Positions 1-45,426 of a stretch of 45,426 nucleotides of DNA are shown in pieces. Below the pieces are notes generated by a model. It was given only the letters and a program-made list of their open reading frames with translations, was not told the origin of the DNA and did not search any database. A program made the translations under genes and the position numbers. This DNA is from a virus: positions 1 through 45,426 of the IMG/VR virus record IMGVR_UViG_3300027736_000077; one strand, 5' to 3'. How positions within the stretch are numbered: position 1 is the first letter of the stretch; every line of letters starts with the position of its first letter.

Positions 1-35
1 GTAGGCCACAGGTTCAATTCCTGTCGGACAGGCCA
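1..35 (+). tRNA. 3' part of a tRNA gene, cut by the window edge
   Basis: The visible part folds as the end of a tRNA: a T-stem (ACAGG with CCTGT) enclosing the loop TTCAATT, then a seven-base acceptor strand CGGACAG, a discriminator G and an encoded CCA. The acceptor and D arms and the anticodon lie outside the window, so the amino acid cannot be assigned. It may be a host tRNA used as an attachment site, the tRNA remnant in attP, or a phage tRNA. Confidence 0.75.
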
Positions 36-372: not shown

Positions 373-3300
373 TCACATTACCCTCGAAGCTAGTCCACCC
401 TTAGAAAACTTAGGAGTTAGTTCTCTTATTGCATTAACTGTCTCTTTCTGTTTCTTTGCTGGTGCTCTAGATGATCCAAACATATTAACATCTAAAGATG
501 ACAGTTGTTTTCTGAGATTATCTATTACATCAGCCTTCTGCGTGGAGCCAGAGTTGCGAAGAGTATAAGATAATTGGCTAAGCATTTGAGAAGTATTAAT
601 AGATTGAGGTTCTTTTAAGAGTGTAGATCCCTCAAATGGTTCTCTATAACTAATATTAGAAGCAACGTTCTCTAAGAATCTTTGATAGCGTTGACCCAAT
701 CCTGTTTTAGTTGATGTGGCTTCTGATGTATCCAAAGCTGAGTTCATCAGTGTCTTAATCTTTCCATACATTTGATTAGCCAGCACTTTGCTTTGGCTAG
801 ATGTCTGTGCTTGACCAATGTTCTTGTATAGATCAATGATATCTTTAGACAGCGTAGCCTGTCCCTCTATCCGCTCTTTAATCTTAGCTTGTATAGGCTC
901 AACAATATCTTCGGCAGGGCTCAGTCTTGGTTGATTACCAACAGCCTTAGCTGCTGGCACAAGTTTGTCTGCTTCAATGATGGCATCTTCTGTCTCATGC
1001 ATACCAGATCTAGGTAAGCCTATAGATCGCACAGTGTTGGGACTACCATTGACAACACGAGCAAGGATGTTCATATCCTTTGTATCATATTGAGTAGGCT
1101 TCATATTCACACGCTGGAATACAAAGTCTGCATACGGGATTTCCGTATACAAATATTGCTTAGGATTTCTACCACCAAAGTCTTGTGTCTCATATCCCAG
1201 ATTTAAATCTCTAGTAAAAGAAGGAGCACCAACCCTTAGTTCGCTGTGGTACTTACCATAGGTAAGAGGGTTTTGAAAACCAGCATCGCCTATGTCTGTT
1301 GCATTTCTAGTACCATGAAACAGTTTAACTGGCGGCTCATCTTTATATTTAATACGCAACTCATCCAGCTTGTTCTGATACTTCTTAGCCATGTCAGCAA
1401 ACTCTGCAACATCTGCGGCGTTCTTTGGATTAATCTCCGCACCCGTCTTAGCTCTGAAGTCACCCTGCACTACACCAACAACTTGCTCAGCATCAGGCAA
1501 AGCACTAATCGCTTCATTGTTTATTAGCTTATCAAAGCTTCTCTCACGAATGGTTCTAATTTTTTGCAGGATGGCATTTCTATCTGAGACACTAGCACCT
1601 GTTCCACCTACTGGGCCAAACGCCACTTCATTGAAGGGAACTGTAGGCCCACCCAAGGATGGTGTTGGCTCATTAGTAATCTGCTCATTGGTAGCAAACA
1701 TGTCTTCCATGTCATTACCCTTAGTCTTCCACGATGAGGGAGTCTCAGGATTGAAATCACCAACATCTTCACCAGCAGCTTCAGCTTGTTTGTATGCTTT
1801 GTATTCCTCTTCCCAAGGAGCTTTAGTTGCACCTGTCTCTGCCTTATAAACAAAGGCAGGAATCTCATCAGGCTGTAATTTCAATGCCTTGGCTGTGGAG
1901 TCATGCAGAGCTTTGGCATATCCCTCTGGATCGCTGCTGGCCCAATCTGCTAGGTTCTGTTTAGCAACATCATCATCCATTTCAGTACCTAGCTTCTGTG
2001 CTGTCTGGTATTCCTTAGCCACCAGCACCTTCTCACCTTTGGCGTACTGATCAGGAGAGAAAGCAGCAGACTCAACAGGTGTTTCTGCCATCGAAGCTTT
2101 AGGTAGCTCTGTAGGAATAGCCTCAGGTGTGGAAGGAACAGGCATTGCTGGCTCTTCAGCAGCAGCCTTAAGGGTGGACATAGGCTCAGGAGCTTTAGCC
2201 GCTTTCTTGCTGGGCATGTTGGCAGCGGAGGTGTTAACAATGCCCTTCATCTGCGCTTCGATTGCTGGAGTAATGGAAGACTTTGGTCTTTCAGATAAGA
2301 CTTTGTTAACGATGGACTCAGCAGCAACACCAGAAGACTCAGCTTTCTTGGCTAAGATATTGGCTATTCTTTCTCCAGCGGGTACTGTTTTGCCCAACAT
2401 CTTTCCTACCATACCGCCGATAGAGAAACGAAGATCTTTTAATGATGCTTGATAGCCAATGTAAGACTGATAATCTTTGTTGTCTTCAAGTGTTTTACCT
2501 TCGTGGTCTTTGGCATATCTCTCATTAATGATGGAGCGCTGCGGTGCTGGAAGTTTATTCCACTGCATCTTATAGACACGATCTAAATGTTCGCCTTTGA
2601 ATTGACCATCAGCAATCTTTCTTGATGTAGCTACAGCCTCTCCAACCATCTTGTACATGGCTTGTTGTTGCTCTAACAAAGGTAACGTAGCATAACGAGG
2701 ATCACTCAATGCTCTGCCGATAGTGTCAATAACAAAAGGATTGGCTGTCTTTACAAAAGCCCTGTCGTATTCTTTATCACCTGACGAAGGGCCATATAGT
2801 TTATATGGATCAATACCTAAGCGTGTAATCTCTTTCTCTTGTGGTGTCTTCTCTGGGTTGCTTCTAACACCAGTAAGACCATAATAGAATTCACCTTCTT
2901 TGTACACTGGCCCTTCACGCAAACGTGGGACAGCCTCAGGCAAAGACTCTTTAAGAATAGGAAGCTTTCCCTGTACTCTCGTAGCACCAGCCTCAACTAT
3001 ATTACCCGCTGATATATCTGTTCCGGGAATCTTGTATTCACCCTTAGATTCAAGCAAGTTAGGGTCACGCTGCACTGCGCCCTGTTCTCTAAACATATCA
3101 AGGAATTGCCACGCTGTCTTAACTACAAAAGGCTGGGTAAATCTAGCAGTAAAATCACCAAGCACTTTACCAATAGCTATCTCCATCTTATCTGCTTCTT
3201 TCTCAGAAGAAATGGCAGCAGACATTTGATTTAGGAATGTTGCTTGAGTACCAGCAGGTAGCTTCATACCAGCAATAGCCTCTAACATACCAGCAGTATC

Positions 3301-5814
3301 TGGCTCCAGCCCTTGTTTTCTTTTTACCAAGAAGTCAGCAATGGCAAGTTGAGGGGCCAGTACACTCAATGATCTAGTATCAACAGTAGTGCCATCAGCA
3401 TTCTTCATGTTGAACCAATCAGTATCTTGGTTGTTCATGCGGTAGTCATAGGCAGCAGCAAGAGAAGCTGTACCAACAATACCTTTAGCTAGGTTTTCCT
3501 GTCCTTTTCTAATGAGGGCATCACCACCTTCTTTACCAGCACTCTTCAATACGGCCCCTTGTAGCATATCCTGAGCACCAGAAGCAGCACCAAATACACT
3601 GTAGCGATATTGAAACGCTACAGCATTAGCCATGAAGCGGGGGAAAGTAGCAAACAAGCTACCACCGGGAAGCTCAGCAGCCTTGATGAACAGGTTAGCG
3701 GCTGTCTCAGCCCCTGCCTCAAAGGTCATTCCCTTAACAGCCTTAGGCTGATAGGCAAACGTAGCCTTAAGCGTTTCATCTGCTGCATTCTTAAGGATGG
3801 ATGCAGGTATTGCTTTACCATTGGCAATGGCATCGTACATATCAAGACCTGCCCTACGCATGCTCTTATCAACAGAAGCAGCAAACAAAGCCTTTCTAAA
3901 GAAAGCATCTTGTGCTACGTTCAATGTGTTGAATACCTGTGCAACCTTTGATATCTCCTGAGTAGAGTTTTCTTGTGTTGCACTAAGAATATTGTTACGG
4001 ATGGCAGGGTTGTGTTCTAACAGCTTATCTGTTACTTCAGAAGACAAGCCTTGTTTAGACAGATAACCGTAGATACCAAAAGCATCCTTCATGGTATCAG
4101 ATAAGCCCTGCTTCATTGTGGCAATGCGTTGGCCTTTGGCAGCGTTGTCCAGTGTTCTACCCATAGTGTAGAGCGCCCCCTCAACCAAAGAAGCCGCTGA
4201 GTTAAAAGTAATGGCTTGACCAGTACCAATAACATTTCGCATTGTGGTATCTAGACCACTGACAATCCAAGCTTTGGATTCTCTTTCTGCACTACGAATA
4301 ACTTGACCAACCCTACCCATAGCTGATGTAATTTCATCGGGTTGATTAAACAAAGAATCAATAAGCTTCTTAGCCTCAGGATCAATCTCTGTCAGTCTGT
4401 TCATAATCTTAGAAGCAACAGAGTATTGCTGCATGATCTGTGCAGCCTCAGTGACAGTTAGCTTGTTGGCTTGTGCAAATTGCTCAGGGCTTAAACCCTC
4501 TCTTCTGATGGCGTTTTCTAGGACAACATCATCCACCTTGTCCAGATTTGAAAACACTTCTGCAATGGCGTGGCTAGTGCTTTGGCTAGGCTTAAGCTGG
4601 AATGTAGGATCAGTGGTGATAACATGCAGAGCTACACGCACGGCTCTCTTAGACATATCAACAGCAATCTTACTGTCTGTTAATGGTGTGGCTGGGTTTA
4701 TATCATCCAACACCCTAGCGCCCTGCAAGTTCATAAACTCTTCTGCAAGGCTGTCCATATTCTTTGAAACTGGATCTGCCAATAGCTTTTCAATGGAAGT
4801 CATTGGCGCGTTTGGATTTGCGGGGGATCTTGCTTTACTATTAATAATATCTTGCAACGCTTCAGCGCCAGTTTTACCATCAGCTAGTTTCATACCAGCC
4901 TTAGCACCACCATAACCAACAGCAGAAAATAAAGCAGCAGCACCAAGAGACAAAGCGCTAAGCTCTTCTGGTTCTGTTCCCATAACTTTAGCTACTTCTT
5001 GTTGCTTCTTGTTTTCTGCAACAACACTGCCCACATTGACAGCAGCGTCAGCGGCTGTGGCACCTAAGGCTAGCTGTGTAGATTTCTTTGCTGTAACTTC
5101 AGCAGCTTCTTTAGCACCAAGACCAACCACTGCTTTCTTGATTGCACCTTTACCAATAGAACCAAAGCCAACACCAATGTAATTAGTCAAGTCTGTTAGT
5201 GCTGCCCCAGCAATGTCAATAACTGGCTGCATGCCCGGTTGACCGCCCTCACCAGTGAAGCTCTTTACTTCATCATAAAGCTTCTGACCAAGAGCAAGTT
5301 TCTCTTTATCAGGCAAAGGAGAGTTCTTAAGTCTATTAAGCGCAGATAGTTGTTGGAAGATATTCCAATCTTGTCCACGCATGTTAGACATGAAGTCTTG
5401 AACAAACTGTTCTTTGCTTTCACCTTCTTTGTATGTAAGAGGCTGACCCGGTTTACCTCTAGTGGTGGGTGACTTCATTGCAACAGAAGCATAGTCTGTA
5501 ACAATCTTAAACATCTCAGGATTTTTATAAAGCTCTTCGTAGTTGATCTTTGTGTCTGGTGCAGTGGTCATGCCAGATACATCCACTTCACCTGTAGCAG
5601 AAACAGGAGAGCCACCACCAGTAGGGACAATTGGTGTGTCGTCTGTGGATGGCTTAGCTACAGGTGTGGGAGCAGCAGAAGCAGGGGCTCTAAAAGGAGT
5701 GACACCCCTACTTGCTGCTGGCTTAGCTAATGGTTGAGACAAATATGCGTCTGGGTCAAACCCTGTAGTAGCAGGGGTAGAAGTTGCTAAGTAAGCGTCT
5801 GGATCAAATGCCAT
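373..5814 (-). CDS. giant 1813-residue virion protein (probably ejected) with ADP-ribosyltransferase-like domain
   Basis: By far the largest gene of the late region, placed last among the virion genes where short-tailed phages keep their ejected internal proteins. The N-terminus carries two copies of FDPDAYL (residues 3-9 and 19-25), and a related FSPDQY recurs near residue 1250. Around residues 200-310 there are Gly/Ala-rich hydrophobic stretches that could interact with membrane. Near residues 1490-1620 there is a probable ADP-ribosyltransferase fold: KLFHGTR (H1500), then SFTRDLNLGYE (Y1541) and HETEDAIIEA (E1607/E1609), in the His-Tyr-Glu order of PARP/toxin-type enzymes. The C-terminus ends in SKGGLASRVM, a Lys-Gly-Gly motif shared with other virion proteins here. 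The architecture resembles a large polyvalent protein delivered with phage DNA. Virion role is likely; the ADP-ribosyltransferase call is moderate. Confidence 0.75.
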   Translation of the reverse strand: MAFDPDAYLATSTPATTGFDPDAYLSQPLAKPAASRGVTPFRAPASAAPTPVAKPSTDDTPIVPTGGGSPVSATGEVDVSGMTTAPDTKINYEELYKNPEMFKIVTDYASVAMKSPTTRGKPGQPLTYKEGESKEQFVQDFMSNMRGQDWNIFQQLSALNRLKNSPLPDKEKLALGQKLYDEVKSFTGEGGQPGMQPVIDIAGAALTDLTNYIGVGFGSIGKGAIKKAVVGLGAKEAAEVTAKKSTQLALGATAADAAVNVGSVVAENKKQQEVAKVMGTEPEELSALSLGAAALFSAVGYGGAKAGMKLADGKTGAEALQDIINSKARSPANPNAPMTSIEKLLADPVSKNMDSLAEEFMNLQGARVLDDINPATPLTDSKIAVDMSKRAVRVALHVITTDPTFQLKPSQSTSHAIAEVFSNLDKVDDVVLENAIRREGLSPEQFAQANKLTVTEAAQIMQQYSVASKIMNRLTEIDPEAKKLIDSLFNQPDEITSAMGRVGQVIRSAERESKAWIVSGLDTTMRNVIGTGQAITFNSAASLVEGALYTMGRTLDNAAKGQRIATMKQGLSDTMKDAFGIYGYLSKQGLSSEVTDKLLEHNPAIRNNILSATQENSTQEISKVAQVFNTLNVAQDAFFRKALFAASVDKSMRRAGLDMYDAIANGKAIPASILKNAADETLKATFAYQPKAVKGMTFEAGAETAANLFIKAAELPGGSLFATFPRFMANAVAFQYRYSVFGAASGAQDMLQGAVLKSAGKEGGDALIRKGQENLAKGIVGTASLAAAYDYRMNNQDTDWFNMKNADGTTVDTRSLSVLAPQLAIADFLVKRKQGLEPDTAGMLEAIAGMKLPAGTQATFLNQMSAAISSEKEADKMEIAIGKVLGDFTARFTQPFVVKTAWQFLDMFREQGAVQRDPNLLESKGEYKIPGTDISAGNIVEAGATRVQGKLPILKESLPEAVPRLREGPVYKEGEFYYGLTGVRSNPEKTPQEKEITRLGIDPYKLYGPSSGDKEYDRAFVKTANPFVIDTIGRALSDPRYATLPLLEQQQAMYKMVGEAVATSRKIADGQFKGEHLDRVYKMQWNKLPAPQRSIINERYAKDHEGKTLEDNKDYQSYIGYQASLKDLRFSIGGMVGKMLGKTVPAGERIANILAKKAESSGVAAESIVNKVLSERPKSSITPAIEAQMKGIVNTSAANMPSKKAAKAPEPMSTLKAAAEEPAMPVPSTPEAIPTELPKASMAETPVESAAFSPDQYAKGEKVLVAKEYQTAQKLGTEMDDDVAKQNLADWASSDPEGYAKALHDSTAKALKLQPDEIPAFVYKAETGATKAPWEEEYKAYKQAEAAGEDVGDFNPETPSSWKTKGNDMEDMFATNEQITNEPTPSLGGPTVPFNEVAFGPVGGTGASVSDRNAILQKIRTIRERSFDKLINNEAISALPDAEQVVGVVQGDFRAKTGAEINPKNAADVAEFADMAKKYQNKLDELRIKYKDEPPVKLFHGTRNATDIGDAGFQNPLTYGKYHSELRVGAPSFTRDLNLGYETQDFGGRNPKQYLYTEIPYADFVFQRVNMKPTQYDTKDMNILARVVNGSPNTVRSIGLPRSGMHETEDAIIEADKLVPAAKAVGNQPRLSPAEDIVEPIQAKIKERIEGQATLSKDIIDLYKNIGQAQTSSQSKVLANQMYGKIKTLMNSALDTSEATSTKTGLGQRYQRFLENVASNISYREPFEGSTLLKEPQSINTSQMLSQLSYTLRNSGSTQKADVIDNLRKQLSSLDVNMFGSSRAPAKKQKETVNAIRELTPKFSKGGLASRVM

Positions 5815-14756: not shown

Positions 14757-15974
14757 TTAAATTGATTTTAAAGCTAGTGTAAACCCAGCGCCAGACATTA
14801 TGTCTGACCATTTAGTAAGTGAGCCAACTTGTTTTGGGGAAGAGTATGCTGTAGTATTTCCAAGACCTAACTCCCCATTTGGAGAAGAACCCCAGCCCCA
14901 TAAAGTACCATTTGTTTGAATAGCTAAAGTGCTGTAACCACTACCTGATGCTTTTAACCAATTAGTAAGTGCGCCTACTTGTTTTGGGGAAGAATAATTT
15001 GTATTGTTTCCAAGCCCAAGAACCCCACTAGAATTGCTACCCCAACTCCATAATGTTCCATCAGTTTTAATTGCTAAGGACATTTCCCCACAAGGAGATA
15101 TTTTTGACCAGTCAGTTAATGCTCCAACTTGTTTTGGTGATGAATAATTTGTTCTATTATTTAAACCGAGTTGACCAGCAGCGTTATAGCCCCAAGACCA
15201 CAATGTTCCATCAGTTTTAATAGCTAAAGTTTGCGCTCTTCCTGCATAAACATTTGACCAAGCAGTTAAAGCACCAACTTGTTTTGGAGAAGAATAATTT
15301 GTTGTGTTTCCAAGGCCAAGTTGACCATTATTATTTCTACCCCAAGACCATAACGTACCATCGGTTTTAATTGCAATAGTAAAATATGATCCACAGGCTA
15401 CCTTTAACCAGCTAGTTAAAGCGCCTACTTGCTTTGGGGATGAGTAGTAGGTTACGTTTCCTAAACCAAGACCACCTAGAGCGTTATATCCCCAGCCCCA
15501 TAATGTTCCATCAGTTTTAATTGCAATTGCCGCCGTGCCGCCGCCAGTACTTATAGTACTCCAGTTAGTCAGAGCGCCAACTTGCTTTGGGGATGAGTAA
15601 GCTGTTGTGTTGCCCAGACCAAGCGCACCAGAACTAGCAGTCCCCCAACTCCACAAAGTCCCATCTGTTTTAATGGCAAATGAAGCACCATCAGCTTTAC
15701 CAATATTCAGTTTTGACCAAGTAGTCAATGACCCAACTTGCTTTGGAGAAGAATAATAAGTCCTGTTATTTAAACCAAGATTGCCATTGTTGCCATTTCC
15801 CCAACTCCATAATCCATTTGGGGCAGCAACACCCGGAGTAGGCCACAAACTTTGACCTAACCAATACTCAACTTGATCAATTGTCCAAATACCAGATGCG
15901 GACGCAGTTGCCCAATTGCCAGACGGAACTGGAGCAGTCTTGCTGATTATTCCACCGGGGTACTTTGTAGACAT
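14757..15974 (-). CDS. RCC1-type seven-bladed beta-propeller protein (copy 3), probable receptor-binding tail protein
   Basis: After a 55-residue N-terminal domain (PGGIISKTAPVPSGNW, then GIWTIDQVEYWLG...LWP), the protein is seven repeats of about 52 residues. Each repeat has an AIKTDGTLWSWG strand, a GxLGLGN turn and YSSPKQVGALTNW. This is the RCC1/BLIP-II fold. The N-terminal GIWT...WP pattern is one I associate with phage tail proteins and may anchor it to the tail. The start overlaps the stop of the sulfotransferase gene (TAATG). One of three paralogues in this block. Confidence 0.8.
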   Translation of the reverse strand: MSTKYPGGIISKTAPVPSGNWATASASGIWTIDQVEYWLGQSLWPTPGVAAPNGLWSWGNGNNGNLGLNNRTYYSSPKQVGSLTTWSKLNIGKADGASFAIKTDGTLWSWGTASSGALGLGNTTAYSSPKQVGALTNWSTISTGGGTAAIAIKTDGTLWGWGYNALGGLGLGNVTYYSSPKQVGALTSWLKVACGSYFTIAIKTDGTLWSWGRNNNGQLGLGNTTNYSSPKQVGALTAWSNVYAGRAQTLAIKTDGTLWSWGYNAAGQLGLNNRTNYSSPKQVGALTDWSKISPCGEMSLAIKTDGTLWSWGSNSSGVLGLGNNTNYSSPKQVGALTNWLKASGSGYSTLAIQTNGTLWGWGSSPNGELGLGNTTAYSSPKQVGSLTKWSDIMSGAGFTLALKSI

Positions 15975-17743
15975 TAAGCTACGCTCCTAAGTGCTGGCTT
16001 TGCGCCCAAGCGGTCTTTGATGCGGTCAAACGGGGCTTGCCAGTCGCCAAAGACTTCTTGCCTGAACAGGCGCATCGAATCATAGTAAGGTGTTTTGTCG
16101 CCGTCAAGGGCGTACAGATAGTATCCCATTACAGGAATGACCACCCAAGTCTCAATACCCATAGCGGATGCCAGATGGCTCACGCTGGTGCAGGACGATA
16201 TCACCAAGTCGCAGCTTGCCACCGCATTGCGGGTCTCATCCCAAGTGTTGAGCGGAACACGGTTCACCCAGATCGGGCAAGCCTCGGCACCTTCATCACG
16301 CTGCAAGCTGATGAACTCGTAGTCTGCATCCTTGACGGCGTTGAACAGAAGCTCGTAGGGGAACCGCTTGTTGTGGTCGTCCTCAAACTTGCTGTTTCCC
16401 TGCCAGCGCAGTCCAATGCGTTTCTTGCGGCCTTTGATAGTGGGCGGCTTGGCAATGTACGGGTCACCACGCAAGTCACTCATCTCATAGCCAAGATAAT
16501 TAGGGGCTGTCATGCCATAGCACCAGAAGTCGTGGTATACACCAAACTCAGCGCCAACTTGTACAACTGCCGACACACCTTCAATGCCAGAGAACAGGCC
16601 AGCCAATTGACCAGAGCAGCACACCACCACTTTATTACCACGAGCTACCAAGTCACGAGCATAGCGCACCTGATGAATCTGATCACCTAAGCCATGATCG
16701 CAATACAGTAAGATCGTACCCTTAGTCTTACCATCCCACTCAGGCGCAGGAGAGTCTGGGCGTTTCTCGCCAATGATTCCACAATAGCGACCACGATCCA
16801 TCTGCTTATAGCCTTCAGCAATCTTCCCTTGCTTGAGCAAGTACCAGCTACGGTTATAGGCAGCACGATGATCTGTAGGGCGCTCTGCATGCAGCTTCTC
16901 TGACAAGCGCCAGCCTTCAGCAAAGTCACCCATCTTACCGGCAGCTACTTGCAAATCTAGATCATCAAGCTCTGGCAAAGTGCGGTTGCCGCCTGCCCAG
17001 AACTCTGGCTGGCAGAATTGGTTGTAGTGGTGCTTGAGCAGGTCACGAGCGTTGTCGTTGTGTTGCTTTTCCAGCTTGGGCTTGACATCGTGCATTCCAG
17101 CATAGCCATGCAGATTTTCATCGTCTTCTTTTACACTAGATCCATCAATGTTGCTGAAATCGTACTCGTAGTCGGGTAGCCCCAAGAACTCATGGATACG
17201 GGCCAACTCAGCGCGGGGGTCAGACAGCAGTTTGTCGTACTCAACGAACAGGAAATTCTCTGGCATGGCTTGGTAGCCAGCCTCTACGGACAGGTAAGCG
17301 GCCTTGAGGTGATCTGCAAGTTGGCCTGAGTACATGAACGCATCCAGATCGTCAGGCTTGGCAACACGGACAAACGATGCCATGCAGTCAGGCACTGGAC
17401 GAACGGTAGCGATTATCTTGCAAGGGCGATTCAGCACCTGAGCCATTGCGCCCATGATCTGTGGAATGGGCCAGCCACGGGACTTGTCGATGATGACGGG
17501 CTTGTCGGTGTCATCATAGAACGCATCAATACAGCCACGCATGGTCTGCGCCAGCTTCTTGCGCTCTGGGTCATTGTCATTGAGCAAACCAGCAGAGTGC
17601 CAAGTGTTTGCCAAGCCATCCAGAGCATGAACCAAGCCCGATGTGGTGGACACATGGGTCATGGGGTTCTGGTTGAGGATAGCCGCAAGCACGGTGGAAC
17701 CGCTGCGGGGAATGCCAGAGAGGAAATGTAGTGTTTTGTTCAT
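15974..17743 (-). CDS. sulfotransferase / TPR / glycosyltransferase fusion
   Basis: Residues 1-230 are a PAPS-dependent sulfotransferase: LSGIPRSGSTVLAAIL is the 5'-phosphosulfate-binding loop, and FLFVEYDKLLSDPRAELARIHEFLGL is the 3'-phosphate-binding region. A TPR-like helical stretch follows (AAYNRSWYLLKQGKIAEGY). The C-terminal 230 residues match TPR-linked glycosyltransferases: GLGDQIHQVRYARDL, GLRWQGNSKFEDDHNKRF and ASCDLVISSCTSVSHLASAMG. The start used is the ATG that overlaps the upstream propeller stop (ATGA), not an earlier in-frame codon. By eye the gene is clearly more GC-rich than the propeller genes on both sides. It probably sulfates and glycosylates a surface or tail component. 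Confidence 0.8.
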   Translation of the reverse strand: MNKTLHFLSGIPRSGSTVLAAILNQNPMTHVSTTSGLVHALDGLANTWHSAGLLNDNDPERKKLAQTMRGCIDAFYDDTDKPVIIDKSRGWPIPQIMGAMAQVLNRPCKIIATVRPVPDCMASFVRVAKPDDLDAFMYSGQLADHLKAAYLSVEAGYQAMPENFLFVEYDKLLSDPRAELARIHEFLGLPDYEYDFSNIDGSSVKEDDENLHGYAGMHDVKPKLEKQHNDNARDLLKHHYNQFCQPEFWAGGNRTLPELDDLDLQVAAGKMGDFAEGWRLSEKLHAERPTDHRAAYNRSWYLLKQGKIAEGYKQMDRGRYCGIIGEKRPDSPAPEWDGKTKGTILLYCDHGLGDQIHQVRYARDLVARGNKVVVCCSGQLAGLFSGIEGVSAVVQVGAEFGVYHDFWCYGMTAPNYLGYEMSDLRGDPYIAKPPTIKGRKKRIGLRWQGNSKFEDDHNKRFPYELLFNAVKDADYEFISLQRDEGAEACPIWVNRVPLNTWDETRNAVASCDLVISSCTSVSHLASAMGIETWVVIPVMGYYLYALDGDKTPYYDSMRLFRQEVFGDWQAPFDRIKDRLGAKPALRSVA

Positions 17744-18912
17744 GTTTTTAATGCTGCGCCAAAAGTGCCACCACTGCTTGATACTTGAGTCCAAGTAGTT
17801 AAAGCACCAACTTGTTTTGGTGATGAATAAGTTGTTCTATTATTTAGACCAAGTTCTCCATTGCCACCATAACCCCAATCCCACAAAGTTCCATCAGTTT
17901 TAATGGCTAATGTTGTGTTGTTAAAAGCACCAATTTTTGACCAGTTAGTTAAAGCGCCAACTTGTTTTGGAGATGAATAGTAGGTTGTATTGTTTTGCCC
18001 AAGTTCTCCATTACCGTTATACCCCCAAGACCATAAAGTGCCGTCTGTTTTAAGCACTTGGCTAAAATACACACCCCCACCACCGTTGCTCCAAGTGGTT
18101 AAAGCACCAACTTGTTTTGGTGATGAATAACTTGTTCTATTACCCAATCCAAGTTGACCATCTGCATTTTTACCACAGACCCATAAAGTACCATCAGTTT
18201 TTGTAGCTAAAAGATGGAGTCCTCCGGGAAATATGTTTGCCCAAGTAGTTAAAGCTCCAACTTGTTTTGGAGAAGAATAATAAGTTCTATTTCCTAATCC
18301 TAATTGACCATCTGCATTTCTTCCCCAAGACCATAAAGTACCATCAGTTTTAATTGCAAAACAAGCATAGATTTTAGCCATTGCAACAGATGACCAAGTA
18401 GTTAATGACCCAACTTGTTTTGGGGAGGAATATTTTGTTCTGTTTCCTAAACCGCATTCTCCACTCAGATTAAATCCCCAAGTCCATAAAGAACCATCAG
18501 ATTTAATAGCTGCTGCTGAGTAATAACCAGCACTAACTTTAAGCCAATTAGTAAGTGCGCCTACTTGTTTTGGGGATGAGTAGTAGGTTACGTTTCCTAA
18601 ACCAAGTTGTCCTTGGGAATTGTTTCCCCAAGTCCAAAGTGAGCCATCATTTTTAATAGTAAGCATCCAATTACGTCCACCTGTAATTTGATACCAAGTA
18701 GTAAGAGAGCCAACTTGTTTGGGAGAAGAATACGAAGTTTGATTGCCTAATCCTAAAGTGCCATTAGTTCCGCTTTCACCCCAAGTCCAAAGGTAATAAC
18801 CAGTACCAATAGGTGGGTTAGGCCAAGTCGATGCCGCCACAGCCTGTGCTTGTGACTGCAATGTCCACTTGCCTGAGTATTGAACGCCTGATATAGATAC
18901 TATTGTTGCCAT
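17740..18912 (-). CDS. RCC1-type seven-bladed beta-propeller protein (copy 2)
   Basis: A 390-residue paralogue of the two other propeller genes. It has a short N-terminal domain (SGVQYSGKWTLQSQAQAVAASTWP) in the style of phage tail proteins, then seven repeats each with a DGTLWxWG strand and a YSSPKQVGALTTW end. The repeats are AT-rich and very alike at DNA level. The tail-receptor role is inferred from the location just after the tail fibre and from the repeat fold. Confidence 0.8.
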   Translation of the reverse strand: MATIVSISGVQYSGKWTLQSQAQAVAASTWPNPPIGTGYYLWTWGESGTNGTLGLGNQTSYSSPKQVGSLTTWYQITGGRNWMLTIKNDGSLWTWGNNSQGQLGLGNVTYYSSPKQVGALTNWLKVSAGYYSAAAIKSDGSLWTWGFNLSGECGLGNRTKYSSPKQVGSLTTWSSVAMAKIYACFAIKTDGTLWSWGRNADGQLGLGNRTYYSSPKQVGALTTWANIFPGGLHLLATKTDGTLWVCGKNADGQLGLGNRTSYSSPKQVGALTTWSNGGGGVYFSQVLKTDGTLWSWGYNGNGELGQNNTTYYSSPKQVGALTNWSKIGAFNNTTLAIKTDGTLWDWGYGGNGELGLNNRTTYSSPKQVGALTTWTQVSSSGGTFGAALKT

Positions 18913-18915
18913 ACT

Positions 18916-20046
18916 TTAACCTATTGCAACTGTGTGTGTATTACCACAGCTAACTTTCTGCCACGTTGTCAAAGACCCAACTTGTTTTGGTGACGAATAA
19001 TAAATTATATTGCCCGATCCTAGTTGACCGTAATTATTAACACCCCACGACCATAGTGTGCCATCAGTTTTGATTGATGCAACAAAAGAACCACTCTTTG
19101 CACCCGAAATCTGTGACCAATTAGTAAGGGCTCCAACTTGTTTTGGTGAAGAATATTTAGTTATATTTCCTAATCCTAATCCTCCATAACTGTTATATCC
19201 CCAAGACCAAAGACTGCCATCTGTTTTTATGGAATATGTAGAATATCCTGATGCAGAAATAGTTAACCATGTTGTTAACGCACCTACTTGTTTTGGTGAA
19301 GAGTAGTTTGTTATATTACCAATTCCTAACATCCCAAATTCATTATATCCCCAAGTCCATAATGTGCCATCTGTTTTAACTGCTACTGTATGATTTTGCC
19401 CACCTACAATTGATGCCCACGTGGTTAGAGCACCAATTTGTAGTGGAGATGAATAGTTAGAAGCCGTTGTTCCATAACCTAGTTGACCATAACTATTTTG
19501 ACCCCATGACCAAAGAGTACCATCTGTTTTAATACCTAAAGAGTGGAAGCCACCAGTAGCAATTTTTGACCAAGTTGTTAATACACCAATCTGCTTTGGA
19601 GAGGAGTAACTGGTAAGATTAAAAAGCCCTAATTGACCAAAAGCGTTTGAACCCCAACTCCACAATGTGCCATTAGTTTTTGTAGCTAAAGTATAATTTC
19701 TACCAGAAGCAATCGTAGACCAGTTAGTAAGTGCGCCTACTTGTTTTGGGGAAGAATATTTTGTTGTGTTTCCTAATCCTAGTTGACCGTTTGAATTTAT
19801 TCCAAAAGTCCACAAGGTGCCATCAGATTTAATTAACGCTGAGTGTTGATACCCACTGGAAATACTTGACCAATCAGTAAGTGACCCAACTTGTTTTGGA
19901 GATGAATAATAAGTTCGATTATTCAAGCCAAGCTCACCATCGGCATTGTAACCCCAAGTCAACAAATTGTACCCAAGAGTAGCCGTCTGCGTCCCCAGAG
20001 GATTGAACCCCGGCTTAACAATAGCAGCTTGCCAGCGCATTGACAT
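18916..20046 (-). CDS. RCC1-type seven-bladed beta-propeller protein (copy 1)
   Basis: A 376-residue protein with a short, distinct N-terminus (MSMRWQAAIVKPGFNPLG) and seven RCC1-like repeats. One repeat is variant (TTASNYSSPLQIG), the others have YSSPKQVG. An AAGGT ribosome site precedes the ATG. It lies between a small beta-rich protein and the second propeller gene, so it belongs to the tail or adsorption module. Confidence 0.8.
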   Translation of the reverse strand: MSMRWQAAIVKPGFNPLGTQTATLGYNLLTWGYNADGELGLNNRTYYSSPKQVGSLTDWSSISSGYQHSALIKSDGTLWTFGINSNGQLGLGNTTKYSSPKQVGALTNWSTIASGRNYTLATKTNGTLWSWGSNAFGQLGLFNLTSYSSPKQIGVLTTWSKIATGGFHSLGIKTDGTLWSWGQNSYGQLGYGTTASNYSSPLQIGALTTWASIVGGQNHTVAVKTDGTLWTWGYNEFGMLGIGNITNYSSPKQVGALTTWLTISASGYSTYSIKTDGSLWSWGYNSYGGLGLGNITKYSSPKQVGALTNWSQISGAKSGSFVASIKTDGTLWSWGVNNYGQLGSGNIIYYSSPKQVGSLTTWQKVSCGNTHTVAIG

Positions 20047-31495: not shown

Positions 31496-33082
31496 TCAAT
31501 ATCCAAAAGTTTTATCTGCCATACGCATACCTGTATGCGAAGTTGTCAGAGGGTTATAGTCAAACAGACTACTCCGGGGTCTACTCATTATCCCATATCT
31601 AATTGCATCGTACAGATGATCTTCAGCCTTTGTATCAATATCCTCAGGATTCTTCTTATCCAAAGGAATGATTGGAAGCTGTGCAATTATGTTCGTACAG
31701 TTACTAGTTATAACCATACGAGGCTCATCTGTAAACGTATCTACTTGCAAACGCTTGTGAAGTTGCTGCTTTCCAGCTATGCGGCTACCAGCACTACGAT
31801 CTGCTGGCCTCCAACGGCATCCTTCTTGTATCATCTGCTCAGCCAAGGAGGGGCCAGTGTCACCGCGCCTAGCCCAGCAGCTACTATCTAGCACACCATA
31901 GCGCATAGGCCCATCATTAACCTCTGCTGCCAGCACCATCTTCGCCAAATCTTTAGCCAACACCTTAGAGACGTACAATTCTCTGTAGATGACTAGCTGA
32001 TCGCTAGGAGATACAGCAAACCACACCACAGCGCTGTAGCTTCCATACCCATAGTCCGCAGATCTGAACTTAGTCCAGTTGCCGGGTATGTCAAACGAAG
32101 GAACAACGTGTATTTGCCTGTTAAACTCAGGGAATGCTGCGCCTTCTGCTACATCCCAGTTACCTTCTAGCAGTTGTTTCCTCTGATGCTCTGGCAAAGA
32201 CAGCAGCATCGTCTCATAATCACCAGTTTCTGCCAGATATGGGTTATCTGCTAGCATTGCGGGGATGAACCTACGCTTAAATAGGGGTTGTCCCTCTCTA
32301 CTGTGTCCTCTGGGATACACTAAAGTCTGACTTGTCTCAATATCCGTAGCCCAGAAGGGCTTCCCAGCCGGTGCTGGGTCAATAAACATCTTCTTCACCC
32401 AAGCATGACCGGGGCCACCGGGGTTGGTGGTGGCTCTCATGTATATCGACAGGTCAGACGCTGGTGTACGCAAGCGAGAACGCATATAGTTCCACGCAAA
32501 CGGCGTATGCCACTGTGTCAACTCATCAAAACCAATCCAGCTAAAGGCCAAACCCTGATAACGCAGTACATCCTCGTCTCTATCTAGATAGGACATCCAC
32601 AATCTAGCCCCACTTGGAGCTTGCCACTGCATCTTTCGCTCACTCCATTTGATGCCGGGGTAGATCTTGGGATATATCTCTTGGCTTTTCCATACCAACT
32701 CACGCAATTCCTCTGTCGTGTGACGCAAAAGCAGCCCAGAAAACTGTGGATGACCCATATATCTGAGCGGATCAGCCAACATAGCGTAGCTTTTACCACC
32801 ACCAGCAGCACCTCCGTACAAAACTTCCCTCTCGCCAGCAGCTAAGAAGAAGGTTTGTGGCCCAGCATTGGGCTTGAAGATGATGTTCTGTGCTTCTATC
32901 TCATTCAATGGTACTTCTGGAGAAAGACTCTCTGGTGTCTCTATATTTTCCTGAGTGGAAGTAACCGCTATCTTGGGCTGTTCCAGTTCTTTCTTCGTAC
33001 TCTTCGGCTTTCCTAAGGGCTTTTTCGTACCTTTCGGTAAGCTTGCGGTAAGTTGAAGCCTTTCTCTTGTGGGATTGCTCAT
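31496..33082 (-). CDS. terminase large subunit (DNA packaging ATPase/nuclease)
   Basis: Walker A is GGAAGGGKS (residues 90-98), Walker B FSWIGFDELTQW (D187, E188), with RATTNPGGPGHAWVK as coupling region. The C-terminal RNase H-like nuclease has aspartates at FRSADYGYGS, GVLDSSCW and EDHLYDAIRYG. It cuts concatemeric DNA and drives it through the portal. The ATG start overlaps the upstream small gene by 182 bases; an in-frame TTG at L59 (AGAAG upstream) would remove almost all overlap and give about 470 residues, a common family length. The true start is unresolved. Confidence 0.93.
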   Translation of the reverse strand: MSNPTRERLQLTASLPKGTKKPLGKPKSTKKELEQPKIAVTSTQENIETPESLSPEVPLNEIEAQNIIFKPNAGPQTFFLAAGEREVLYGGAAGGGKSYAMLADPLRYMGHPQFSGLLLRHTTEELRELVWKSQEIYPKIYPGIKWSERKMQWQAPSGARLWMSYLDRDEDVLRYQGLAFSWIGFDELTQWHTPFAWNYMRSRLRTPASDLSIYMRATTNPGGPGHAWVKKMFIDPAPAGKPFWATDIETSQTLVYPRGHSREGQPLFKRRFIPAMLADNPYLAETGDYETMLLSLPEHQRKQLLEGNWDVAEGAAFPEFNRQIHVVPSFDIPGNWTKFRSADYGYGSYSAVVWFAVSPSDQLVIYRELYVSKVLAKDLAKMVLAAEVNDGPMRYGVLDSSCWARRGDTGPSLAEQMIQEGCRWRPADRSAGSRIAGKQQLHKRLQVDTFTDEPRMVITSNCTNIIAQLPIIPLDKKNPEDIDTKAEDHLYDAIRYGIMSRPRSSLFDYNPLTTSHTGMRMADKTFGY

Positions 33083-36580: not shown

Positions 36581-36827
36581 ATCTAAAAGTTCCTTTTCTA
36601 TCTTTCCACCCCTCAGCTTTCATTGCTGTTTCAACAGCATCAAGACCGAAGTAGTAACCAGTATGCTTTTCTAAAGCAGCCCTAACAAAGTAAACATCCG
36701 AATGAGGAATATGTATTCCCTCTAAACGATCATTGTGTATTGCAATGTATATTTTATTGATTACTGAATAAGGAGGAGAATCAATTAGTCCTTCATCTTC
36801 TACTTGTTTTCTAGTCTTTAGTTGCAT
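36561..36827 (-). CDS. first gene of the leftward operon, 88 aa
   Basis: A small protein (SPPYSVINKIYIAIHNDRLEG, ending ETAMKAEGWKDRKGTFRYVDQ). No Shine-Dalgarno is seen, but a good promoter lies about 40 bases upstream. Function unknown. Confidence 0.6.
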   Translation of the reverse strand: MQLKTRKQVEDEGLIDSPPYSVINKIYIAIHNDRLEGIHIPHSDVYFVRAALEKHTGYYFGLDAVETAMKAEGWKDRKGTFRYVDQIG

Positions 36828-37299: not shown

Positions 37300-37412
37300 T
37301 TTTTCCACTTATGTACTTACGCTTGATACATTAGCACTATGGTATCTACCAAGATATCTACCATATTTGCTATCTGCAAATAAAGAATGTTGTGTAGTGC
37401 TGTGCAGATATA

Positions 37413-37428
37413 TGTTCCACGTGAAACA
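37413..37428. other. parS: parS centromere-like site (chromosomal ParB consensus)
   Basis: TGTTCCACGTGAAACA fits the bacterial chromosomal parS consensus TGTTNCACGTGAAACA at every defined position. ParB proteins load on this site, slide as clamps and direct segregation by ParA and loading of SMC. No parA or parB is visible in the window, so the site would be read by host ParB. It is not in a gene with credible start signals. Confidence 0.8.
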
Positions 37429-37510
37429 TGTTGGCCCTGTATACCACTTTTTAGCATTGTGGTTAACACTTCCATTTTTCCTGATTTTAGGACAGGGCTG
37501 TATACAACTA

Positions 37511-37581
37511 GCGCGGTACCCCCCCCGTGGCCCTCGCCCAGCCCCGCCCAGCCGCCGCCGCGCCGCCGCCAGCCAGCGCGC
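37511..37581. other. 71-bp GC-rich island
   Basis: 63 of 71 bases are G or C, in a strongly AT-rich region. It has a run of eight C and GCC/GCCGCCGCC steps on the plus strand. It may be a structural element (G-rich minus strand), a relic of other DNA, or an assembly artefact. Confidence 0.6.
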
Positions 37582-37820
37582 ATTATGACATGCGATGTAG
37601 CCCTGCGGTGAATTCATTGAAGATCTTAGGATTCACTGCATTCAAAAGAATGCCTTATAGATCAATGACTTATAAGATATTGGAAACTGATTCAAAATCA
37701 GGGTCAGAATCAGGGTTAACCCTCGATCATTGCCATATTTTGAACGATAACGCCCTGTCAGAAAGGCGGTATATCTAACAAGATATAATACATCCCATTG
37801 TTGTTTATTTGCAACACCAT

Positions 37821-37932
37821 CTATCCACAACTTATCCACAACCAAATCAACTGTTGCAAATTTACAACAACTTGCCAAATCTACAATAGGATATCCACAG
37901 GTTTTCCCAGTGGTTTGGCAGACTGTGGATAA
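37821..37932. promoter_or_regulatory. cluster of DnaA boxes
   Basis: CTATCCACA (37821-37829), TTATCCACA (37832-37840, perfect), ATATCCACA (37891-37899) and TGTGGATAA (37924-37932, a perfect box on the minus strand). Four boxes in 112 bases, two of them perfect, flanked by an inverted repeat TTGCAACA/TGTTGCAA. AT-rich DNA follows to the right. Typical of a DnaA-dependent origin. Confidence 0.75.
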
Positions 37933-38037
37933 CTCTGCTTCAACTTTAAATATTTATAATCGCTTTATATATGACAACTCTGTTGGCATAAGATAAAGCT
38001 TAAATATTTAAAGATCTGCGCGCATGCAGCGCAAAGT

Positions 38038-38122
38038 CTTGTCTTAATTCATAAGATAAAAGTAAAACTTTAACCTTTAGGGAAAGTTTAATACTTTTAT
38101 CTGATTTATGAATTAAGACAAG
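38038..38122. promoter_or_regulatory. 85-bp long hairpin upstream of the rightward operon
   Basis: Three matched blocks: CTTGTCTTAATTCATAA with TTATGAATTAAGACAAG (17 bp), GATAAAAGTA with TACTTTTATC (10 bp), AAACTTT with AAAGTTT (7 bp). Small bulges (four and two bases) sit only on the right arm, and the loop is 11 bases. The right arm ends in the AAGG of the ribosome site of the next gene, so the RNA hairpin could hide it. It could also be a cruciform at the origin. Confidence 0.8.
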
Positions 38123-38130
38123 GAACGAAA

Positions 38131-38406
38131 ATGAAAAATTTAGCGGCTCTCGAAAATGTTTTATCTGCCAATGGTGCAGCTTTTGATAACCTTTGGGATA
38201 TTCTTGAAAGCTTTCATACAGACTCTGAAATTGTAGATTACCTTAAGGATACCTTCAAGGCTTCCTCTAAGGAAATTGCAAATTTCCGTAAATTCACTAG
38301 TGACATCTATGATCTTCTGACTACAATGATTTCAGAAGATGAAATACAGTGGGCATCATGGCACGAGGTTCAAACCCTGATAAACCCTACAGTTGACATG
38401 GTTTAA
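38131..38406 (+). CDS. first gene of the rightward operon, 91 aa
   Basis: An acidic helical protein (ENVLSANGAAFDNLWDILESF, and ASSKEIANFRKFTSDIYDLL). The AAGGA ribosome site overlaps the end of the long hairpin, so its translation may be switched by RNA folding. The first gene of an operon next to a putative origin could be a regulator or replication accessory, but no motif shows this. Confidence 0.65.
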   Translation: MKNLAALENVLSANGAAFDNLWDILESFHTDSEIVDYLKDTFKASSKEIANFRKFTSDIYDLLTTMISEDEIQWASWHEVQTLINPTVDMV

Positions 38407-38469: not shown

Positions 38470-39225
38470 ATGTTCAAGTCTAAAGCTTTGCTTTCAATCG
38501 GTGCTGATGCAAAAACTGTCAAAGGGGAAACCTTTGGTTTCTTAACAGGTATTCTTTACCTTGCCCCATACCTTTCCACAAAGTGGAATACTTGCAGTAT
38601 GGCTAGCATTGCACAGTGTGGAAAGGCTTGCCTTTTTACTGCTGGACGGGGTGCAATGTCACCAGTGGCACAAGGCCGAATCAATAAAACGATTTGGTTC
38701 TTTGAAGAGCGTAGCTCTTTCATGATTCAACTCGCTGTTAACATTCGTCAGCTTGTTGCTAAAGCAACCAAACAAGGCAAAAAACCTTTGGTTCGATTGA
38801 ATGGCACCAGTGACATTCGTTGGGAAAGCGTAGCTTTTATTGATGCTGATGGCACTGAATATGTAAACATATTTGCTGCGTTTCCTGATGTTCAATTTTA
38901 CGATTATACAAAAATTGCCAATCGTAAAGATATCCCGTCAAATTATGATTTGACATTCAGCTATAGCGGTGTCAAGGCTTACCAGCCTTTTGTTGATATG
39001 GCAGTGGCACAGGGCATGAGGATCGCTGTGGTGTTTCGTAATCGTCAAGATATGCCTTCGGCATTCAACGGAATGTCGGTGGTTGATGGTGATAACAGTG
39101 ACATTCGTCACTTAGATGATCAAGGTGTTGTCGTTGGGCTGTATGCCAAGGGCAAAGCGAAGCTTGATGACACTGGATTTGTGGTTGAAACACGTAAAGT
39201 GTTTCCCATAGCAGTAGCGGCCTGA
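38470..39225 (+). CDS. conserved phage protein with Cys motif, 251 aa
   Basis: Contains CSMASIAQCGKACLFTAGRG (three Cys), LVRLNGTSDIRWE and FPDVQFYDYTKIANR, and a VVGLYAKGKAKLDD end. I have seen this combination in other phage genomes, as a family of unknown function. The Cys cluster could bind metal. A TTCCTAAAGGAA leader precedes the ATG. Function unknown. Confidence 0.75.
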   Translation: MFKSKALLSIGADAKTVKGETFGFLTGILYLAPYLSTKWNTCSMASIAQCGKACLFTAGRGAMSPVAQGRINKTIWFFEERSSFMIQLAVNIRQLVAKATKQGKKPLVRLNGTSDIRWESVAFIDADGTEYVNIFAAFPDVQFYDYTKIANRKDIPSNYDLTFSYSGVKAYQPFVDMAVAQGMRIAVVFRNRQDMPSAFNGMSVVDGDNSDIRHLDDQGVVVGLYAKGKAKLDDTGFVVETRKVFPIAVAA

Positions 39226-40073: not shown

Positions 40074-40346
40074 ATGACAACCTCCGTAGAACTGAACGGC
40101 TACATTACAAACGACATGAAAATGTATGGCTGCAACATCGAAGCTTTCAAAGAAAGTGTCAAGCGATCCATCACCTACCGCTTATCAGGTGGTTCGATGG
40201 TGGTGGCAGGGCTGATGTCTGATGCCCAAGAGATGATGGCACATGGCGACACCGAAAGTGCTCGAATGTATTTGAACAGGGCGAAAGCCCTAGTGTTTGA
40301 TATGAGATATGGTGATATGGCCTTCGGCCCTAAGGAAAAAGCATGA
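40074..40346 (+). CDS. small helical protein, 90 aa
   Basis: Starts MTTSVELNGYITNDMKMYG directly after a TTCCTAAAGGAA leader. Helical and Met-rich in the middle (MVVAGLMSDAQEMMAHGDTESARMYLNRAKAL), a TPR-like helix pair. Stop overlaps the next start (ATGA). No family. Confidence 0.6.
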   Translation: MTTSVELNGYITNDMKMYGCNIEAFKESVKRSITYRLSGGSMVVAGLMSDAQEMMAHGDTESARMYLNRAKALVFDMRYGDMAFGPKEKA

Positions 40347-40711
40347 TTGGAATCAATGTTCGTAATGAAAAGGATTATCCTTTTGCTGACATGATTGTTG
40401 ATGGTTTAAAAACCATAGAGACAAGGGAGAGCCCCTCTCTACATTGCTATGCTGGGCGTAGAGTGGCAATTGTCAGGACAGGACAGGGCAAAGCCCTTGC
40501 AATTGGTGAGGTTACGATCTCATATTACAGTTGGACAAATGGAATACATTTGTTTGATTCTTTTTATGATGGTCATAAGGTAGGCAAAGGCTCTGCCTTT
40601 TATATCAATCCAAAAAAAGGAAAATATTTGTATCACCTTGAAAACCCTGTTAGATATGACACGCCACTTGAAGTGGCACAAGGCATTGTTGCTAGAAAGG
40701 TATTGAAATGA
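40343..40711 (+). CDS. ASCH/PUA-like domain protein
   Basis: A 122-residue single domain: IGINVRNEKDYPFADMIVDG followed by LKTIETRES, then AGRRVAIVRTGQG and AIGEVTI. The G-x-K-T-I-E-x-R motif is diagnostic of the ASCH family, which is thought to bind RNA or modified bases. The stop overlaps the next start. RNA-binding or nucleoside-linked role inferred. Confidence 0.7.
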   Translation: MIGINVRNEKDYPFADMIVDGLKTIETRESPSLHCYAGRRVAIVRTGQGKALAIGEVTISYYSWTNGIHLFDSFYDGHKVGKGSAFYINPKKGKYLYHLENPVRYDTPLEVAQGIVARKVLK

Positions 40712-44026: not shown

Positions 44027-44871
44027 TTACAGAAGATCAAGCAATAGGCATGCTAGTAGGCACTGCCATTGGTGATGCACTAGGTGCGCCGCTGGAGTTT
44101 ATTGAACCAGAAGATATCCGTGATGTACACGAAGAGATGACAGGTGGTGGTGTGCATGACACAGCCCCCGGCGAATGGACTGATGACACGGCTATGGCTA
44201 TGGCTATAGCTGATGCATACATTACACAGGGTAAGTTTGATCCAGCCGCCATCATGCTCAACTTCAAGGTGTGGAAAGACACTGGCCTCTACGGCACTAG
44301 GGAATATGTCTTTGACATTGGTAACACTACATCAGCAGCGCTGGTTGAGGCCAATGTATATACACCCTATGCTGGTAGCTCATCACCTAAGGCTAGCGGT
44401 AATGGCTCCATCATGCGGGTTGCTCCAATCATGATTGTTAATCACAGGAATTCAGTGAGGGCTATCGGTGAGGCAGTGGCTGTGTCGTTGATGACCCACG
44501 GCAGCAGAGATACAGTGCATTACATTTCAGCGTTTGTTGCTGAGTGCATGGAAGGCTTTCACTTTAGTTCTAACCAATCGTTGTTGCTCAAGACTAGGAT
44601 GCCACCGCATGGTATTCGTGGGACAATTATGTGGACTTACACTCAAGCATGGCGTAGCATTTCCCTCAACGGAAACTTCGAGGATGCTGTTATCCACGCT
44701 GTTAACAGAGGCAATGATGCTGACACTGTAGGTGCTGTCACTGGCATGTTAGCTGGACGGATGTTTGGATACAGCAAGATCCCTAAGCGTTGGCTGGATA
44801 AGCTGCACCAGCATGACCACATCGTTGACACTGCCAAACAACTATACAACTTATACCCTCCCACATTATGA
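44023..44871 (+). CDS. ADP-ribosylglycohydrolase (DraG/ARH family)
   Basis: A 282-residue hydrolase that removes ADP-ribose from proteins or other targets. Metal-site motifs are complete: AIGDALGAPLEF (16-26), EWTDDTAMAMAIADAY (from 51), GNGSIMRVAPIM and NRGNDADTVGAVTGMLAG (from 228), with the aspartates that bind two Mg2+ ions. Length matches the family. ATGA overlaps on both sides. Its substrate could be the product of the ADP-ribosyltransferase-like domain in the giant virion protein. Confidence 0.92.
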   Translation: MITEDQAIGMLVGTAIGDALGAPLEFIEPEDIRDVHEEMTGGGVHDTAPGEWTDDTAMAMAIADAYITQGKFDPAAIMLNFKVWKDTGLYGTREYVFDIGNTTSAALVEANVYTPYAGSSSPKASGNGSIMRVAPIMIVNHRNSVRAIGEAVAVSLMTHGSRDTVHYISAFVAECMEGFHFSSNQSLLLKTRMPPHGIRGTIMWTYTQAWRSISLNGNFEDAVIHAVNRGNDADTVGAVTGMLAGRMFGYSKIPKRWLDKLHQHDHIVDTAKQLYNLYPPTL

Positions 44872-45426
44872 AACTACCTAGATATTTAATGTCACAAGAT
44901 GGTGGGTACAGGTACAACCCTCCAGCAGATGCAGTGGAGGCTGGCATAGTGAGAAGGCAAGCGTGTGGCACAGACCAGCAGCAAGCCTTTGCCTATGCTG
45001 AGGAACAGAATGCCTTGATGGATGAGTGGCGCAAAGATGTACGTTACTTGCGTACACTATCCACCAAGAGCACAGTGGCTGATCTAGTCAGGGCTTATAA
45101 GGCAAGCATTGGTTACACCAAGCTTAGCCCTAAGAGTCAGGAAGACTATGCCTATTTCCTGAGCAAGTGGTATGGCAGCAAGACCTCAGGCACTACGCTG
45201 CTACACACTAGGATGGGTGATCTAGTCACACCAATATGTCAGCGTATCTACGACGAGCAAGCAAGCCATAGCGTTAGCCTAGCCAATCATGCCCTGTCTA
45301 TATACAGGCTGCTGTTTAGCTTTGCTATTCGTAATGGCTACACCCTGCACAATCCCTTCACCAATGTTGCAAAGCAAACAGACAAGCCACGTAGGGTGGT
45401 GTGGCAGAAAGACAACATAAAGAAAT
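44868..45426 (+). CDS. int: tyrosine recombinase / integrase, N-terminal part (cut by window)
   Basis: The visible 186 codons open with MKLPRYLMSQDGGYRYNPP and contain a core-binding (SAM-like) domain: TVADLVRAYKASIGYTKLSP, ending in SLANHALSIYRLLFSFAIRNGYTLHNPF. The catalytic domain with the R-H-R-Y residues lies beyond the window. It integrates the phage into an attachment site and indicates a temperate life style. The start overlaps the stop of the hydrolase gene (ATGA). Confidence 0.85.
   Translation, partial: MKLPRYLMSQDGGYRYNPPADAVEAGIVRRQACGTDQQQAFAYAEEQNALMDEWRKDVRYLRTLSTKSTVADLVRAYKASIGYTKLSPKSQEDYAYFLSKWYGSKTSGTTLLHTRMGDLVTPICQRIYDEQASHSVSLANHALSIYRLLFSFAIRNGYTLHNPFTNVAKQTDKPRRVVWQKDNIKK

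Follow-up and report, generated by a model that had tools for sequence, protein, structure and literature searches.

The parS locus and its surroundings

The DNA analyzed here (the window) is a 45,426-base record of a freshwater virus, with no end repeats. Its terminase (large subunit, 31496 to 33082, minus strand), portal, major head protein, virion proteins, and gene order, together with its nearest named relatives, assign the phage to the HMO-2011 type. The window is incomplete: about 10 to 15 kb (~14.5 kb), placed by the relatives G055 and MW202701, is absent between a tyrosine integrase gene cut by the right end (44868 to 45425, plus strand), which has homologs in relatives, and a tRNA cut by the left end. 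In MW202701, an annotated complete genome, DNA polymerase, nuclease, and nucleotide genes fill this stretch. The idea of a phage that has no replication genes and lives from a DnaA origin was therefore rejected, the replication module being merely absent from the contig. The left-end fragment (1 to 35, plus strand) is the 3′ end of a tRNA-Arg(TCT). An attP within a host tRNA was discarded as an explanation of this end, because G055 has a phage tRNA-Arg(TCT) there, together with tRNA-Thr(TGT) (L367, 12818 to 12976), beside its homolog of 373 to 5814. Elsewhere in the window, the tail region encodes three related RCC1-like-repeat proteins (14757 to 15974, 17740 to 18912, and 18916 to 20046; the Pfam match is shown for the first), with a sulfotransferase-like protein (15974 to 17794) among them. 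The early genes include an ADP-ribosylglycohydrolase (PF03747; 44023 to 44871) and a weak, below-cutoff match to the ASCH domain (40343 to 40711), both possible counterdefense or host takeover genes.

Leftward late genes, the last of them ending at 36827, and rightward early genes, the first of them at 38131, border a 1.3-kb noncoding stretch. Within it, at 37413 to 37428 on the plus strand, lies a stand-alone host-type parS, TGTTCCACGTGAAACA. This 16-mer is an exact match to the 16-bp ParB/Spo0J parS consensus TGTTNCACGTGAAACA, confirming what had been claimed from the letters alone, and it has no other exact copy in the window. It forms the core of an 18-bp near-palindrome, ATGTTCCACGTGAAACAT (37412 to 37429), with A and T as flanks, and differs by one base from the perfect palindrome TGTTTCACGTGAAACA. 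By chance, both strands of the window together would be expected to hold ~2e-5 such sites with 16 fixed bases and ~8e-5 with 15. ParB and Noc have distinct site specificities (PMC7383237), and a Noc binding site was ruled out for 37413 to 37428, as the core matches parS exactly.

On the side of the rightward genes is a cluster of four DnaA boxes (37821 to 37932). Two of them read TTATCCACA (37832 to 37840, plus strand; 37924 to 37932, minus strand), and two are DnaA-box-like, CTATCCACA (37821 to 37829, plus strand) and ATATCCACA (37891 to 37899, plus strand). The sister phage L002, with 93% DNA identity, conserves the minus-strand box and has altered but still box-like letters at the other positions: TTGTCCACA at the first, TTTTCCACA, still a DnaA box, at the second, and TTATCCACA at the third. 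In relatives, strict DnaA boxes occur at a density of 0.50/kb over the 1.8 kb that precedes the gene for a GP88 family protein (PF17338, phrog_1617; 38470 to 39225, plus strand in the window), which served as the anchor for finding relatives, versus 0.066/kb elsewhere. Hence, the cluster is real, and its distance from parS, described as close in the sequence-only reading, is ~390 bp. An AT-rich stretch that may serve as an unwinding element (37940 to 38015) adjoins the boxes, an inverted repeat with perfect 17/17-nt arms (38038 to 38054 and 38106 to 38122, 51 nt between them; 38038 to 38122 overall) lies upstream of the rightward genes, and the cumulative GC skew has its minimum at 37 to 38 kb. 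By its sequence features, the intergenic region is plausibly origin-like, though such phages also carry a polymerase. Between parS and the DnaA boxes, ~90 bp from parS, is a conserved GC-rich island, perhaps an origin, packaging, or regulatory element (37518 to 37587), with 90% G+C over 60 bp, versus 45% for the genome, and a core resembling CCCCCGGTGGCCCACGCCC. An island of 0.75 to 0.90 G+C is found upstream of the GP88 gene in all 17 relatives checked (L002 to L020). A search of the intergenic region against Rfam gave no credible match.

Within the phage's own family, parS is rare. Across 80 related loci, with up to 2 mismatches allowed, the site is present in L002 only and missing from the other 79, and the exact 16-mer occurs in none of 50 whole related records, which rules out family-wide conservation. 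The expectation that relatives would keep the 16-mer at the same place was thus borne out by the sister phage and not by the 79 other relatives. In L002, parS lies inside a longer identical block, meaning that no separate constraint on the site is demonstrable. The intergenic alignment to relatives begins ~30 bp to the right of parS, with the site itself in the nonaligning part. This boundary and the absence of the site from relatives suggest that parS was probably gained recently in this lineage.

Partition genes in the phage and its likely host

No ParA or ParB was detected among the window proteins scanned against Pfam and PHROGs, and ParB_N (PF02195) was found neither in the window nor in 41 relatives, 3 of which (G055, G064, and G065) are 56 to 60 kb, in agreement with the original remark that no parA or parB is in view. 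Since the window holds about three-quarters of the genome, the absence of par genes is read from that part and from these more complete relatives. Within this scope, there is no phage-encoded ParABS with parA and parB on the replicon and no cluster of own-type parS sites beside parAB, the window having a single site of host type. Could the absent quarter of the genome encode a phage ParB, alone or together with ParA, whose own site is this parS? The ~14.5 kb would offer room, and some phages do encode ParB-fold proteins (PMC12704722). However, the 56- to 60-kb relatives that lack ParB_N span the absent stretch, MW202701 has polymerase, nuclease, and nucleotide genes there, and the site is of the universal chromosomal type, all of which makes a ParB of the phage's own highly improbable.

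Which host could supply the protein? The tRNA fragment shows two differences in 35 positions from the tRNA-Arg(TCT) of freshwater Comamonadaceae. A search of genomes with the exact 35-mer gave no match, and a relaxed tRNA pattern retrieved 47 genome stretches, all from Burkholderiales/betaproteobacteria by title and mostly from Comamonadaceae. Judged from the phage tRNA alone, freshwater Comamonadaceae are the likely host group; the fragment being part of a phage tRNA, this assignment is only a hint. All nine putative-host genomes searched encode ParB, and the host group also has ParA. Eight of the nine carry one or two parS sites, ~2 to 4 kb from parB, and three contain the identical 16-mer of the phage. 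At the two positions fixing the preference for parS or the Noc site (PMC7383237), the putative-host ParB has R and G (R..G) and should therefore bind the phage site.

parS sites across other phages

In IMG/VR, the 16-mer has at least 120 matches and the 18-mer ATGTTCCACGTGAAACAT likewise at least 120, whereas control 16-mers of equal composition have 1 (reversed) and 2 (shuffled arms with the same CACGTG core). In INPHARED, some records of which are metagenomic fragments, a 30-mer holding the perfect palindrome matched 337 records, the C form 248, and the reversed palindrome 5; 131 records matched at ≥99% identity with E ≤1. Clustering by flanking DNA distributed 205 contig stretches over 155 clusters. 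Among the sites found by the 16-mer alone, 35 of 123 have A before and T after, versus 8.2 expected (P = 1.4e-13). The A and T flanks in the window fit this preference, indicative of palindromic constraint past the parS core, an extension to be expected where a protein dimer binds. Sites within open reading frames mostly translate to (D/N)VPRET, (D/N)VSRGT, or MFHVKH in unrelated proteins, indicating that the DNA is kept and not the peptide. A shared protein motif behind the excess was accordingly rejected, as these peptides come from several frames and the site is also overrepresented in intergenic DNA (27 of 141 parS sites versus 363 of 6000 random positions).

These counts bear on whether the window site is a chance match with no function in this phage. 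Its confinement to this species within the family would fit such a match, as would the many motifs in many windows that were looked at when it was spotted. Against this stand the ~2e-5 expectation for the window, the one and two matches of the controls versus at least 120 for the site, and the A..T flanks and origin-like surroundings. Since chance supplies few such 16-mers among the 120 or more, an exact match taken at random is far likelier to be a selected one, and we consider a functionless coincidence very unlikely. The assertion that the match is not due to chance is therefore upheld, by the window expectation and by the excess in viral collections. Moreover, the same site was gained repeatedly in unrelated phages, so its absence from relatives is no refutation of function.

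Records with parS or near-parS include Listeria phage A511, the phi29-like phages B103 and Goe1, Clavibacter phage CMP1, and phages of Gordonia, Arthrobacter, and Microbacterium. In Pseudomonas syringae phage phiPsa374 (L353) and Vibrio phi 3 (L354), parS lies in the terminal repeat. Counting these two, parS or near-parS sites at terminal repeats or within a few kilobases of the ends are found in several unrelated phages, including Salva (L363), CMP1 (L359), and Ruegeria phage V10 (at 840). parS lies within 5% of a genome end in 6 of 23 phages, versus 2.3 expected (P = 0.02), which is only a lead, as the list was hand-picked. This placement suggests an action on the first-entering DNA in some phages. 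Most records, both large viral ones and named phages, have one parS; B103 and Goe1 have two each. Among 49 large parS-bearing records from the pattern scan, ParB_N was found in 5 of 50 when L002 is added, many viral contigs being fragments, and a Pfam-detectable integrase in 5 of 50 when the window is added. Among 22 named phage records with parS or near-parS, the exact motif is present in 19 and ParB_N in 3, with one of these ParB_N matches scoring under the family cutoff.

Very small phages of ~4 to 6 kb in INPHARED (gut microviruses, filamentous "bajarodino" viruses, and Spiroplasma phage 4) carry parS, some in several copies; Spiroplasma phage 4, with 4.4 kb, has one. Two large contigs, L125 (record G020) and L097 (record G008), contain 24 and 12 parS sites, in contrast to the usual one, with no detectable ParB_N; such sites might form a centromere-like array in a phage-plasmid or a phage of large size.

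Escherichia coli, which is not known to have ParABS, served as an outgroup. In 28 Gb of E. coli genomes, prophages and plasmids included, no parS match was found at an E-value limit that just admits the 18-mer. Enterobacterial phages with parS were also dismissed, as the near-hits examined read TGTTCCACCCGAAACA, a capsid-gene sequence two bases off. A search of open-access papers, with subscription papers and preprints outside its range, found no earlier description of phages that carry a host-type parS but no parB. The wider pattern of phage parS, of which the sequence-only reading was unaware, is a more interesting result than the single site and is unreported as far as open-access papers show.

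Proposed host ParB recruitment and comparison with known systems

Why would a phage carry a centromere site and no protein to read it? Many unrelated phages carry parS without ParB, suggesting that phages probably recruit host ParB to their own DNA. From these sequence comparisons, we consider it quite probable that recruiting host ParB is the selected function of phage parS. In the known ParB cycle, a CTP clamp loads at parS, slides, and activates ParA (PMC12704722), and SMC is a partner of ParB (PMC7383237). When lambda DNA with an engineered parS is injected, ParB collects on it within minutes (PMC13190303). Given this precedent and a cycle that needs only parS in cis, a partition complex would be expected to assemble from a phage parS and host ParB. 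We infer binding, spreading, and benefit on phage DNA as follows. The phage would give parS and the host ParB, which would load at the site and nucleate on the phage DNA once this has entered the cell. After clamp closure, ParB would slide several kilobases across the origin-like and early-promoter region and bring ParA and SMC condensin. The likeliest benefit would be in the handling of phage DNA, that is, placing, keeping apart, and condensing the replicating copies.

Borrowing of host ParB by the phage, as proposed in the sequence-only reading, is the best-supported interpretation, considering that no phage ParB was detected, that the match is not due to chance, and that the likely host group has a ParB of the fitting type. 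The version of a plasmid-like prophage, also from that reading, was not supported: an integrase fragment is present in the window; most other parS phages show none, are lytic, or are very small, and plasmid-style partition thus cannot be the general reason. The same reading had also raised titration; in the form considered here, phage parS would draw off or redirect host ParB, disturb chromosome segregation, and stall division during infection. Titration would suit both lytic phages and a lone site of high affinity, and by extension of the clamp model (PMC12704722) one site could load many ParB clamps. Nevertheless, exactly one site in most records would be a weak sponge when set against the host's own sites near parAB, of which there are one or two, and small or temperate phages would have no clear gain, which makes titration unlikely. 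Control of transcription would instead make ParB at parS mainly a regulator or insulator of divergent promoters. The position of the window site between leftward late and rightward early genes is suggestive of such a role, and ParB is reported to repress promoters adjoining parS in Pseudomonas aeruginosa (PMC5521831). In other phages, however, parS is often located inside a structural or lysis gene, within a terminal repeat, or well away from any promoter, which counts against promoter control as a general role, and we regard it as unlikely. As the carriers are lytic, temperate, or tiny and usually have one site, DNA handling by host ParB is favored over plasmid partition or titration. That the benefit lies in positioning, segregation, or SMC loading, and not in promoter control or titration, is in our judgment an even call.

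Overall, we lean toward the view that the stand-alone host-type parS is a general, so far unrecognized phage device that puts phage DNA under the host ParB-SMC machinery. Its carriers would include this HMO-2011-type podovirus, A511, B103, Goe1, the terminal-repeat phages, the Gordonia, Arthrobacter, and Microbacterium phages, and gut microviruses, with one to a few parS sites and mostly no ParB, and in some cases the host machinery would be engaged from the first DNA entering the cell. Nearly all bacteria use ParB-parS as their centromere. If the device holds across host phyla, chromosome segregation and condensin loading would be a standing part of phage infection, acting through a simple cis-acting site in well-known laboratory phages, the phi29-like ones of Bacillus subtilis among them. 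The relevant hosts, those with ParB, would then be predictable from sequence alone, and the device would account for E. coli work never having met the phenomenon.

The HMO-2011-type podoviruses (PMC9038755) share gene content, gene order, and integrase subgroup with the window phage; among the members examined, parS is present only in this phage and its sister L002. Phage and phage-plasmid ParABS systems, as in P1, other plasmid prophages, and extrachromosomal mycobacteriophages (PMC7157519), likewise provide a phage centromere that a ParB would bind. Those phages encode their own partition proteins and their own parS, whereas the window phage has no par genes in view and carries the host consensus. 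The engineered lambda-parS imaging phage (PMC13190303) indicates that a single parS is enough for ParB to collect on phage DNA shortly after this is injected. Its site is a man-made label read by supplied CFP-ParB, unlike the natural site of the window phage. The chromosomal parS of ParABS in Bacillus (Spo0J), Caulobacter, Pseudomonas, and Burkholderiales is the same 16-bp near-palindrome, identical in several Comamonadaceae genomes; a position near a putative origin may be a further likeness. Unlike it, the phage site is a single copy on a virus in which neither parA nor parB is in view, and its reader would come from the host. CTX-like filamentous phages use host XerCD and dif. Their dif is likewise a copy of a host chromosome maintenance site on which a host protein acts in trans, but its use is site-specific recombination, whereas the reading of phage parS proposed here concerns segregation.
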